Shown here: in pieces, positions 56,098 through 61,967 of the stretch
Position numbering within the stretch: position 1 is the stretch's first letter
Layout: every line of letters starts with the position of its first letter
NCBI RefSeq assembly: GCF_029227915.1
Contig: NC_079878.1
Span: 5,332,001-5,396,000, forward strand
Source of the DNA: Hydractinia symbiolongicarpus
Lineage: Eukaryota > Cnidaria > Hydrozoa > Anthoathecata > Hydractiniidae
Direction: 5' to 3'
Length of the DNA stretch: 64,000 bases
Translations under genes and position numbers: made by a program
The notes under the pieces: generated by a model
What the model was told of the DNA's origin: nothing
Seen by the model: the letters and a program-made list of their open reading frames with translations, nothing else
Database searches by the model: none

Positions 56098-56387
56098 GTT
56101 CTAACAAAACATCCACCTTAGATATTTGACAGCGTGTGTACAAACATTATAAAGAAAAATATCATATTTGACATGACTGAAATTTGATTACTAAAAGGAT
56201 TTGCTAAATTTTACATTTGTTTTTGGCAAATGACAAAAAGTACTAGTTTTTGCATTTACCTTACCTATAAAAAAATCGGTAAAAATTTGACTCACTAATT
56301 TTTTTTACCGACTTTTTTTACCAACCGACTATTGTTATCGACTTCACATTTTTTTGACTAAGTTTTTTCGCCGAAATATATTTTTAT

Positions 56388-56428
56388 TACGATGGCCCTG
56401 AAGGTTCATTGTGCGCACTCACAAATTT
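56388..56428 (+). repeat. Left terminal inverted repeat of the HECT transposon
   Basis: 41 bp, one mismatch (position 32, T versus G) to the right end read in reverse. Preceded by target duplication ttttat. Confidence 0.95.
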
Positions 56429-56859
56429 GTGCACACGCACATTTTTTACTCAACGCACACCATTCTAATATATTTTTGTATGCATGCATGACTTTAAAAT
56501 ATACGCACGCGAAATTTTCCACGCGCGCCTCGAATTTGAACTTCCACGCACCTGAATAGACCCGCATTCAATAACCCGGAAAAAGTCACTGGGTCTGGAT
56601 TTTATACATTTTCTCGACTACGAAAACAGAGCAGCCACTTTCACTTTCATGCATGATACTGAACAACATTGTCGAGGTAAAGTGTGAAGCTTTTATGTTA
56701 TCTTTTTGCTGGCTATTCATCACTCTTTTTCCATCTAAATCCTTATCAAATCAGAGGTTTATGCTTTAATGTGCTCGAACTTTGATATAAGGATGGTGGC
56801 TTTAATTTTATGCTTGTCAGCCAGGGTGTATTTATTGACATTTTTTTCTCTTTATAGAA

Positions 56860-59484
56860 ATGGAATCACTGTTGAAAAGAATAGTCAGGGAAGAAGTAGA
56901 GCGAGCTCTCTCCTCAAATCCTTCCAGTAGTACTTTTGCACCACCAAGTACAACCACTGTCAACAGTCATGTTACCGCAAGCTGCACCACCATCACCACC
57001 AACCCTTCTATCGGCAGTAACCCTAATGCTAAACGCAGCAGAGAAACTAATGGAGACACTCAACTATCCTCCCATCCTAAAAAGGAGAAGACTGAAGTAC
57101 GCCTTAATAAATTGCTGAATCAAATACAAAAGAAAACGCCGAACAAACAAAATACACCTAAGTCTTCAAAGTCAATGAAAGTGCAAGTGAGATACCAAAG
57201 AAAAGGCATATGTGGCAATTTTGTTACCGTTAAGCAGTCTGAGGGTGGTGGACATAGATTTGCGACATTTGAGGCGGCAGACGATCCATCTTTTGAGGAG
57301 CTTAAAGACATCTCTTTAAAATATTTCTTCCCAGATAATGGGAAGAATTTCTTTAATGAGAATACGTTTCAGTTGGTTATCCGACTATGTGACTCGTCCG
57401 GACAGGAATTGAATAAAGATGAATCAATCAAAAAATATTTAATGGAACGTGGTCTGACAGCATCCAGGATCTACTTCCTATTGGTAACAGAACCAATGTT
57501 TGATTCATCTGATTCCAGTTCTGATGATGATTCAAACGCATTATCCAATCAGCGGAAGATATGTGTTGTTTGCGGTAAAACATACTTGTATTTTTGTCTT
57601 GCTTGCAAGCAAGACAAGGAGTTTGCTGACTCCCTCAATTCAGATATAACCAACCGTGATGTAGAATGTATCGAAGAGACGAGTTTTGAAGATCGACCGA
57701 ATCAGGATGCATTACGCCAACTTCGAATAAATGCTATGGCTGGTTCACTTAGCTCAATCAGGTCACTTGAGGAAGATTTAAAAGCGTTATCTCAAGCATT
57801 TTTGGCGAAGAATGCAAACAATGTAGTGACCTTTAATGTTAGACGGAGATATTTATTCAGTGACACTCTTACAAAAATGAAAATTTTTTTTTCTGATAAT
57901 CCTTTACGAAAGATGAAAGTAGAATTTACTAGTGCATCAGCTTTGGAGGCAGGTGTAGATACTGGTGGACCAGGAAGAGAATTAGTGACATTGTTTTATG
58001 AAAACGTGAGTGGCCAGCTTCTATACGGAAGACCGAAAAGTGAAGTTTTTTCGCATGACCTTCTTAGAGTGGACAGCGGTGACTATTACGCATTTGGGCA
58101 ATTTGTAGCTGTTGCACTTCTTCATGGATATGATGCCCCAAAGCAATTATGTAAAGGAGTGAGTGGCTACATAGCAGGTACAACCATTCATTCCCTATTT
58201 TTGAATTTATTATGTGCTAATTAAATGATTTTTTGGATGTTCATTTTTATGACGTACACATGTCTCAAAATGCCCGAAACTCCCCTCCACGATGGAGAAT
58301 TTTTACCAATCTTTGCACACGCCTTCATGAATAAAAGAAGCAAAATGCTTTAAAAAATATCAAAGGAAAAGTTAACCTATCAAAAACAAGATTGAAACAA
58401 CGAAATTGAGCTATAGAATCAAAAAATTGTGACAAAGCATTGTTGCCATAATAACATTCAGTCAACAGGAAAAATTTCATCAGAAAAAAAAATCAAATTG
58501 ACGGGAAGTTTCGGGTGTTTTAATGCAAAATAAAAAAGTAAATCTATGACTTATTGGTTTTATGTTATTATATAGGCAATTTATGTGTTCATTATTTAGT
58601 ATACTTCATATTAATATAGATTTTCAAAGTTTGGAGAAATATTGAAAATTCTGATGTGAGTCGATACGGCACTTAGAAGATCGATTCACAAAATTTTGTC
58701 CACTAGGTTTATTCTTATTTTTACTTTTGTAGGCGTTCAACATTGTTACTGTGAAGTTGAAGATATCCCTGATGTAGATGTACGCGAGAGATTATTAGTG
58801 ATTCGTAACTGTACTGAATCAGAGACATTTCGCCAACACCTGAATGATTTTATAGAGCGATTCGATTTTGGATACACAAAAGTGAATCCTGCTATTAGTG
58901 AAAAAGAAGAGTTGTTGAAAACCATTTCACATCACTGGATTATTTCCTCGAAGTTGGAAGAGTTACAAAAATTTCTGAATGGGCTTTCGTGTGAGGGGGT
59001 ACTCGACATCCTTCGCAAGCATCCTGAGGAAACTATGAAGAAGTTCATGTATGCAAGTGTTTCATCTGAAGATGTGAAGTCAATTTTCAACGCGGTTTAC
59101 ACCGGAAAAATCGAAATCGAAGAGGACATTATTTATAACCTTAAAAACTTTGTGGATGAAGTAGGGTTTGGAAGAGTGAAAGAAAAGAGTGCTGTCAATG
59201 TTCTTGCCCTCGAAGAATCTCCTTTGAATTCAAATCCAAATATGTCGTCGAAAGTCATCACATTGGAGGACTTCCTATTCTTTCTAACAGGGTCAAAATT
59301 TTTGCCTAATAGGAAGGTTGATGTCAGTTTTAATCATCACAGTTTTGGAAACGAAAGAGTAAGAGTGAGCACATGCGAATTGTGGATTCGATTTCCTGTT
59401 ACAAAACGGTACATGGATGGAGAAGTCTTCACTCAAAATATCCTTGATGACATTTTAGATTCACCAGGCTTTGGTAATGTTTAG
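56860..59484 (+). CDS. HECT-domain E3 ubiquitin ligase, transposon-borne
   Basis: Exons 56860-58177 and 58733-59484 join in phase (GCA G|GC, cag|gtacaa donor, tttgtag acceptor) to 689 residues. The ATG follows a ctttatag acceptor-like word. N-terminus: short helix MESLLKRIVREEVERAL, Ser/Thr-rich linker, a basic segment, a roughly 100-residue folded region around GHRFATFEAADDPSFEELKD, an acidic DSSDSSSDDD tract and a CVVC...CLAC zinc pair (about residues 229-245). HECT N-lobe: VEFTSASALEAGVDTGGPGR. C-lobe: VSTCELWIRFP with catalytic-type Cys654, 35 residues from the end, then SPGFGN. Resembles G2E3-like HECT proteins of fish and cnidarians. It would transfer ubiquitin from E2 to substrates; substrates are unknown. 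It lies wholly inside the transposon and looks intact. Confidence 0.85.
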
Positions 59485-59540
59485 TTGTGACATATTTCGA
59501 CTATTTTATGATCATTTTTACATCCATACCAATATTTCTG

Positions 59541-60722
59541 TTAAATTCTAGAAGCTTGTTTCAGCTTGATTCTAGACCTCAGATAAAGGTGTCCATTTCT
59601 GTTGTATTCTTTTGAAGCATTGATGCGTGTGTTACATATGGTACTGTCATGAACTTTATAGAAAATGAGAATTTTTAGCATGCACACTTTTTTACCAGAA
59701 AAAGAACTTGGCGCCAGTATATGTTTGTTCCATCTCTCCGCGAATTCCTTCAAATCTTTCCTTATCAAATGAATGAAAGAGTATCTGACACACTCAGTTA
59801 TAACTGGATTACCTGAGTCAAGTAATCCAAAATCTACTAACTCCTTAAAAAAATTTCGCCACCATATAATCCTGTCGTATCGGAATTGCGACCATAAGGA
59901 TTCAATGCGTTGATTTGCCGTTGATGCCCCGATTAAATAGCTGGCCAACCCTTGAAATTCATCATCATGAGCAGAGCGCAGTGCAATTTGTATAGCTTCT
60001 ACGATACTATTCTCCGTCCCGTCGTCGGAGCGAATACGTAGGGGAACTGCATTCATCTCTGTTTCACAGCTTGAATGTAATAATGTGCGATTACTTCTGG
60101 TTGCTTATTGGTTACACCTACTTCTAACCAAATAATTCTCCGCGAAAACCCGTCGATACAACCATGTACACTGAATCCGAATGGTTTGAGCTTGTCATAT
60201 CCATCGATGTGCCATAGGTGATCAGGTCCAGGGACTGTATAGACCCTTCTCCTCAGCCGCCTTTTCCTCCGCGTGGACACACCTTCGGGATCTAATTCTC
60301 GCATGATTTCCATGATAGTAGCTCGCTTAGCAGGAATCCCCAAATTCTTTATTACATTCCAAACCTTTCTGTACCCTATAAAAAGAATATAATAAATTAA
60401 TCACCAACATAGATTGTTTAGAAACATACATGATTATATGTACTTAAAGTGGCATACCCATTGAGTTTCCACTGCCGAGTAGTTCCATTGAAACCAATTT
60501 TTTAATTTCTTCTCTGTCTTCGATCTTAGCCGGATGTCGTCTATACAGTCCCAACTTGGAAAGCGTTCTCTTCAAGGTAGACAAACTCACAAACACATCA
60601 TGCTGTGCTGCTAAGAATCCCAGGATTTCTAGATTACTAAAGCCTTGTCCAAAGTAAGAAGTTATTAAAGCATCTCTATCAAAACATTTTGAACTTAAAC
60701 AAGGCAGATACGATGTCGCCAT
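59541..60722 (-). pseudogene. DDE integrase-like transposase, one frameshift
   Basis: Minus strand. Exon 1 is 60722-60458 (ATG at 60720-60722; a TTG further up is not needed). It contains an HTH-like region (FSNLEILGFLAAQHDVFVSL) and joins by a GT-AG intron (ATG G|GG) to exon 2 from 60375. The core triad is visible: D in HLWHIDGYDKLKPFG, D in RIRSDDGTENS, E in STANQRIESLWSQ, followed by a conserved WWRNFFKEL block. Between the first and second core Asp the frame changes by one base near 60053-60056, so the protein as read is interrupted. This may be decay, a sequencing error or a frameshift site. Such integrase-core proteins are widespread in fish and cnidarian genomes. The C-terminus may include a further exon. 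Confidence 0.8.
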
Positions 60723-60946
60723 GTTGTTTCCTGCCCCGCAAACAAAGCAATGAAAATTTAACAAAATCAGGACCAGATGGAAAATATCGATTAAATTTGT
60801 GCCAAAATGCTCTCGCGGGCGTGAATGAATTTTTCCTTGCGCGTATTAATACAATGGTGCGTGCATCAAAGCTGTGCGTGCAAGACTATAACTTGAGCGC
60901 GCGTAAATTAAAGCACTTATGTTCCCTGGAATGGTGCGCGTTGAGG

Positions 60947-60987
60947 AAATTTGTGCGTGCGCACAATGAACCTTCAGGGCCATCGTA
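60947..60987 (-). repeat. Right terminal inverted repeat of the HECT transposon
   Basis: Reverse complement of 56388-56428 except one base. Followed by ttttat (60988-60993). Confidence 0.95.
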
Positions 60988-61967
60988 TTTTATAGTGCAG
61001 TGGGAACAAAAACGTTTCAAAAAATGTGAGGATACAGTGAGTGGATATATTCACTTAGTTAGTTGGAATTGATATAAAAAGCAGAATATCAAATTCCTTT
61101 GCAAAATTTAGTCTGCAAGAAATTTGTTAAATTTTGTGCAAGTCAATAATATTTTTACTGACTTTTTTGCCGACTTTTTTTTAACGATTTATCATCGGTT
61201 ATTTTTCCAGCAGTTTTTAATTTACATACATCTGTGAAAGTGTTTTTTCTGTCTTAAAAGTCGTGAAAAAAAGATAGGTGTTTCGAATCCTGTCCTTTGT
61301 TCCATTTTCTTTTTTTTTTAATCCGAAACCAATCTCTCTGCTAGTAAGTTCGTATTTAATTCATAAATGTTACCGCAAGTTATATGTATTTATTTGTAAA
61401 TTTTATTTGAATCTACAGGTTTTAAATATTTTTATCCCCTTTGAGTGTTTTTACTTCCGTTTTTATGCTATACAGTTTTTGTTAAAAAAATATTTTATAA
61501 AAATTTAAAAACGTTTAGAATAAAATGCAATTATATAAGGGCAAAGCAAAAAATGACTCAGCTATTTTTTCCATAACATAGGCGTGAAAGAGCCCTAGGA
61601 CAGGGTTGAGGAGAGGTAAATGAGTACAATTACACGAGATTAGACATATTTCTCGCAGCGTCGTTGGTAAAATCTACTGGGTTGTTCATACGTACGAACA
61701 TGCAGCACATCTATGACGCGCGATTTAAAACTCAATGATGGCGGTGGGCTGTTAACGAAATATTCGCTCCTTTAAACCTGATTACACTGCCCACAATCAT
61801 CTTTTTTAGACGTTCACAAACAAGTCTATATACCTTTCTAAACAACACTTACAAAATTTTCATGACTGTGTGGGGTAGAAAAAGTTTTGTACTTACCAGT
61901 AAACATCAAAAATAAGATCCTTGACTGACAACCAAGAATATTTTACGTACTGAAGTAGTAGCAGCAC

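Follow-up and report, generated by a model that had tools for sequence, protein, structure and literature searches.

Can a DNA transposon carry a ubiquitin ligase of its own as a regular member of its gene set, or does a HECT gene between transposon ends mark a single accident? This question is raised by an element at positions 56388 to 60987 of a 64,000-nucleotide stretch of the genome of the hydrozoan Hydractinia symbiolongicarpus (contig NC_079878.1, positions 5,332,001 to 5,396,000, forward strand), the whole of which we call the window. A first-pass annotation of the window had suspected a standing partnership between a HECT ligase and an integrase-type DDE transposase. Comparison with relatives throughout the genome bears out this suspicion: both genes recur in diverged families that have their own ends and target site duplications, and they are paired at 39 of 52 and at 40 of 93 loci in two counts. 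We therefore regard it as very probable that the element is a DNA transposon of the IS3EU/GingerRoot type whose normal gene set consists of the transposase and the HECT ligase, whatever role the ligase may have.

The genome-wide counts carry much of this reading. Relatives of the window HECT gene merged into 52 loci, of which 39 (seven of them copies of the window's own family, family A) lie convergent to a transposase within 8 kb, one lies on the same strand as a transposase and 12 have none; the chance of such pairing is about 0.004 per locus. One locus scored as lacking a transposase (L024) does have one, with both genes in convergent orientation and a single end found. Among 93 merged loci with a HECT domain recognised by Pfam, a transposase lies within 3 kb of 40, whereas about 0.6 are expected under uniform placement, and none are added out to 20 kb. 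This count drew on a 141-row list and on two further lists taken without short exon-1 rows, second pieces of listed loci and repeats. The 40 pairs comprise 20 convergent, 20 same-strand and no divergent arrangements, and each family keeps its own spacing and orientation. Of the same-strand loci, 19 belong to two families described below, E (10) and F (9), as judged by place and score. Conversely, of the 66 transposase frames that are long and open (380 or more amino acids (aa) without a stop, with the broken copy of the window left out), at least 41 have a HECT relative within 8 kb, the HECT rows having been thinned to one or a few per locus. HECT-gene sequence was present at both of the two inspected loci among the 25 unpaired frames: at L053, an N-terminal part (28–29% identity, E value about 1e-20) and a second frame that looks HECT-like on visual inspection, and at L054, a family E HECT gene shortened by a deletion. 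Thus, 41 of 66 represents a lower bound. The genome searches behind all these counts score best candidates only. Viral contigs scanned with the HECT and transposase queries gave no match.

The borders of the element are those that had been proposed at first pass. The left (56388..56428, plus strand, starting TACGATGG) and right (60947..60987, minus strand) terminal inverted repeats are 41 nt long and 98% complementary with one mismatch, and the target site duplication TTTTAT flanks them at 56382..56387 and 60988..60993. In the 480.9-Mb genome, the first 31 bp of the ends, searched with up to three mismatches, occur 16 times, eight forward and eight reverse, all exact and paired, while the reversed control pattern had no match in the same 480.9 Mb; repeats may be undercounted in this search, so that the counts are possible lower bounds. 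The eight copies delimited in this way constitute family A (863–6569 bp). All eight have the termini TACGATGG..CCATCGTA of the TA..TA type and their own matching 6-bp duplication (TTTTAT, GAAAAT, GTATTC, CCTCGG, GATAAC, GTTTTT, GAAACT and AATCAA), and they are 98–100% alike over the aligned parts. From their alignment, they are read as derivatives that arose from the 6569-bp form by internal deletion; beyond this, small gaps occur and L012 contains a rearranged stretch. The window copy itself is a deleted form, which in comparison with the 6569-bp copy has lost 899 bp at 58230/58231, within the HECT intron, and 1067 bp at 59702/59703. Two of the eight copies hold the whole HECT gene (the window copy and L009), five hold part of it and L015 lacks it. 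We considered the deleted copies as elements that had moved without HECT and dropped this idea: deletion points differ in each of them, and loss at or after insertion is therefore equally possible. At L012, the public gene model P0001 (LOC130625598) fuses non-element sequence to exon 2 of the HECT gene from a deleted copy, and the annotation there thereby mixes the two.

The HECT gene of the window had been described as apparently intact, with Cys654, a zinc pair and an acidic tract, and all of these are present in a translation of 689 aa with an uninterrupted frame. According to the exon/intron structure predicted from the sequence, exon 1 (56860..58177, plus strand), aligned to the relatives P0005 and P0006, encodes the N-terminal domain, the acidic tract, Cys235/238 and Cys246/249, and the start of the HECT N-lobe (VDTGGPGRE). 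A phase 1 GT..AG intron (58178..58732) separates it from exon 2 (58733..59484), which encodes the remaining N-lobe and the C-lobe including the Cys654 codon (59374–59376). The same intron site and phase are found in family B, and P0005 and P0006 stop at or slightly beyond this site. Both cysteine pairs are invariant in an alignment of three sequences (window, P0005 and P0006), and the cysteine of the catalytic-type T-C at 653–654 is kept in all seven aligned proteins, the window's included. Pfam detects HECT in relatives at 30–37% identity, above the cut-off in P0003 (7e-9) and weakly, below the cut-off, in P0002 and P0004; the proteins of families C and E also exceed the cut-off (4e-6 and 4.5e-14, respectively). 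Moreover, a profile of five proteins, including that of the window, retrieves from PDB 36 distinct sequences with E values up to 0.1, all of them HECT ligases (E6AP 1e-6, Itch 9e-7, AREL1 2e-5), while the window protein searched directly against PDB hits E6AP alone, at 0.47. A search with alignment A1 returned three proteins, two of them new. Judged by these similarities, the window protein is very probably a HECT-type ligase, although a strongly diverged one.

Two side observations concern this gene. Relatives of the transposon HECT proteins (P0005, P0006 and P0008–P0018) are 33–52% identical to the query. P0005 reaches 52%, compared with at most 44% for paralogues outside family A among the long matches listed in this genome, and since it is nearer than those paralogues it likely comes from another species. 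Within the intron, the stretch to the right of the deletion point (58231–58328) has matches of about 80–84% at many genome sites, and part of the HECT intron is thus itself repeat sequence.

The opposite strand holds the second gene. Transposase exon 1 lies at 60456..60722; the first part of exon 2 (60059..60373) contains the first catalytic D, and the second D and the E of the DDE triad follow at 59703..60059, in a frame shifted relative to the preceding piece and with the C-terminal part lost at 59702/59703. The two exon 2 pieces match the integrase core rva_4 (8.5e-16 and 1.3e-15), and the catalytic spacing is D-58-D-40-E. The convergent arrangement of a HECT gene and an integrase-type DDE transposase between the ends stands as first described, but the transposase is broken and shortened in this copy, and the picture of the window copy as a working two-gene unit is not supported. 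Elsewhere in family A, the transposase frame is open throughout in four of the eight copies (L010, L011, L013 and L014), whereas L009 has one stop, L012 a frame break and L015 no exon 2. An open transposase matches rva_4 at 2e-36 and, below the cut-off, rve at 0.0016; the integrase zinc family was absent from its Pfam scan up to an E value of 1. In complete IS3EU families, TA..TA termini are always found and 6-bp duplications usually, according to the main text of PMC10045372. The TA..TA ends, the 6-bp duplications and the rva_4 core together fit this superfamily.

Five further families with other ends show that the two genes belong together beyond family A. Family B, whose HECT and transposase are 41% and 58% identical to those of family A, has the ends TACGATGGCCCACAAGG; six of seven examined copies (including L036) have both ends with matching 6-bp duplications, and L031 has one end only. 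Families C and D are each represented by one copy: that of family C (ends TACGGAAGCC, beginning TACGG; duplication TCAAAC) spans 4152 bp with a HECT frame of 754 aa, and that of family D (24 of 24 end bases matching; duplication GAAATT) spans about 9.8 kb and has one stop in the portion of its HECT gene that was read. Family E (ends TATGGAGTC, beginning TATGG) includes five copies with both ends, four of them with a 6-bp duplication (cacatc, gtttct, aacaag and tttttg) and one in which it reads as 7 bp. Here, a 503-aa transposase frame and a 641-aa frame with CUE and HECT share one strand, and eight of the nine open HECT frames are adjoined by an open transposase. Near-identical copies with both frames open are located at L038 (G000:C2:11956000-11963500), L047 and six other sites, and from its sequence family E looks recently active. 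The single copy of family F (ends TATGGAACG, beginning TATGG; duplication GTAGAC; 6080 bp) contains, besides a transposase frame, a second gene that encodes a SAM domain; a HECT match of 50 positions follows farther along, still within the ends. At this copy (L052, G000:C10:11306500-11314500), a SAM-like start is seen both on the transposase (SAM_1 at 0.0035, below the cut-off) and on the HECT-side gene (1e-4); such starts perhaps serve contact between the two proteins. Overall, the N-terminal parts of the HECT proteins differ among families, with CUE above, SAM at and zinc motifs below the Pfam cut-off.

Several results weigh against this reading. Pfam gave no match to PF00632 (HECT) for the single exons or the joined window protein. 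Both genes are whole in none of the eight family A copies, and both frames are clean in none of the seven aligned family B copies. Among these seven copies, which are about 98% alike, the pooled ratio of nonsynonymous to synonymous polymorphism (pN/pS) is 0.78 for HECT (dN/dS 0.78–0.83) and 0.56 for the transposase; at this depth, the HECT gene looks nearly neutral and shows no clear constraint. A neighbouring transposase of this kind is missing, in the lists used, from 12 of the 52 and from 53 of the 93 HECT loci, and the counted loci are non-independent, as copies of a few amplified families count repeatedly. Furthermore, short relatives of 2.0–2.2 kb (L018, L020, L022 and L023) with the ends TACGATGGCCCCTATGG and matching hexamers have no HECT found at 1e-4. 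The same applies to L016, a longer relative in which one such element is nested inside another. The transposase match is interrupted at the identical residue (145/146) in several short relatives, as if these had been amplified in trans, and their multiplication without a HECT of their own implies that HECT is dispensable in cis there.

A HECT dN/dS below 1, which the first-pass annotation had suggested looking for, is thus not clearly seen among close copies; constraint shows only between families. Families A and B differ at codon positions 1, 2 and 3 by 0.456, 0.355 and 0.658 in HECT and by 0.353, 0.229 and 0.603 in the transposase, with 0.71 at four-fold sites in both genes. Synonymous sites are saturated yet 43% of residues were retained, and by this measure HECT is shown to have been constrained while the two families separated, if a little less tightly than the transposase. 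The ranking of five families is likewise the same for both genes: A, B and D are close, C is farther and E farthest. On its own, the HECT similarity between A and E has an E value of 0.025, and that between C and E 1.4e-12.

An accidental capture, in which a host HECT gene came to lie between the ends of one element without lasting association, would agree with the partial or complete loss of HECT from six of the eight family A copies. It is contradicted by families with different ends that pair both genes, by the 39 convergent loci among 52 and the 40 close pairs where 0.6 were expected, and it does not account for the constraint on HECT between families; we consider it highly improbable. Host HECT genes are presumably among the 53 Pfam loci without a nearby transposase, and one might suppose that all of these ligases are host genes next to which transposases have inserted. 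For the families in which both ends were seen, this is contradicted, since the HECT gene lies inside the ends and between matching hexamers at many sites, and the fixed spacing and orientation within families also speak against it. This explanation therefore has hardly any probability left, and the partnership of transposase and ligase remains our preferred reading.

How the ligase might serve such an element can be outlined only conditionally. Integrase-type transposases recognise the ends of their element and join them to staggered target cuts. By analogy with known families, the transposase would recognise the element ends and insert them with a 6-bp stagger. The HECT protein would accept ubiquitin from a host E2 enzyme on Cys654, its N-terminal domain and zinc pair would choose the proteins that receive it, and it would act in trans; its likeliest service would be the removal or modification of host proteins that limit transposition, such as silencing or repair factors. 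A counter-defence of this kind against host silencing or restriction proteins has, in our judgement, close to an even chance. It would be in line with the varied N-terminal parts (CUE, SAM, zinc motifs) and, by analogy, with the TET/JBP and alpha-kinase genes of fungal IS3EU elements, which place modifying enzymes elsewhere in the superfamily (main text of PMC12730594). Alternatively, the ligase could regulate its own transposase by ubiquitylating either the enzyme or the stable complex left after insertion, thereby limiting copy number or clearing the site for repair. A parallel for such clearance is the action of ClpX on MuA. The pairing and the parallel divergence of both genes would suit this rather unlikely role as well, but pairing cannot tell whether the ligase acts on its own transposase or on a host protein.

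Extending the partnership reading, we tentatively propose, with somewhat less than even confidence, that an animal IS3EU clade is defined by the co-inheritance of transposase and HECT through several families. The ligase would be a mobility factor acting in trans, with exchangeable N-terminal parts (zinc, CUE, SAM) that pick host proteins, and would have filled the genome with nearly as many mobile as other HECT loci (40 of the 93 listed). A superfamily described by its transposase in the main texts of PMC10045372 and PMC12730594 often travels with a ubiquitin ligase in H. symbiolongicarpus. This offers a tangible example, open to testing, of a mobile element equipped with an enzyme of the host protein-disposal system and suggests where unexplained expansions of HECT genes in annotated genomes might come from. 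Several near-identical copies of family E keep the two frames open, which makes it possible to ask directly, by experiment, what a transposon has to get rid of inside a host cell.

Our literature search found no paper combining IS3EU and HECT, with Repbase entries and most subscription papers outside its scope, and a HECT frame inside an IS3EU element may already be on record somewhere; other searches on HECT with transposons returned nothing relevant. A survey of animal HECT ligases (PMC2837046) contains no word starting with "transpos", and the main text of the Hydractinia genome paper (PMC11067881) mentions neither HECT nor IS3EU. With IS3EU/GingerRoot elements as described in Repbase and PMC10045372, our element shares the TA..TA termini, the 6-bp duplications and an integrase-like DDE core, likewise with no integrase zinc domain listed, whereas the main text of PMC10045372 contains neither HECT nor ubiquitin (no occurrence of either). 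Fungal IS3EU elements, according to the main text of PMC12730594, carry a TET/JBP gene between transposase and alpha-kinase genes of opposite orientation, and TET/JBP is argued there to aid escape from methylation silencing. They resemble our element in their 6-bp duplications, TAYGG..CCRTA ends and an enzyme gene in opposite orientation to that of the transposase, and differ in the enzymes themselves, HECT and ubiquitin having no occurrence in that main text. With cellular HECT ligases such as E6AP, Itch, AREL1 and others, the window protein has in common the VDxGG motif of the N-lobe and the T-C catalytic site, but it is very diverged, has other N-terminal domains and is encoded by a transposon. 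Ulp1/SUMO proteases are cargo of some transposons, and these elements share with ours an accessory enzyme of the ubiquitin-family pathways, which in their case is a protease and in ours a ligase.

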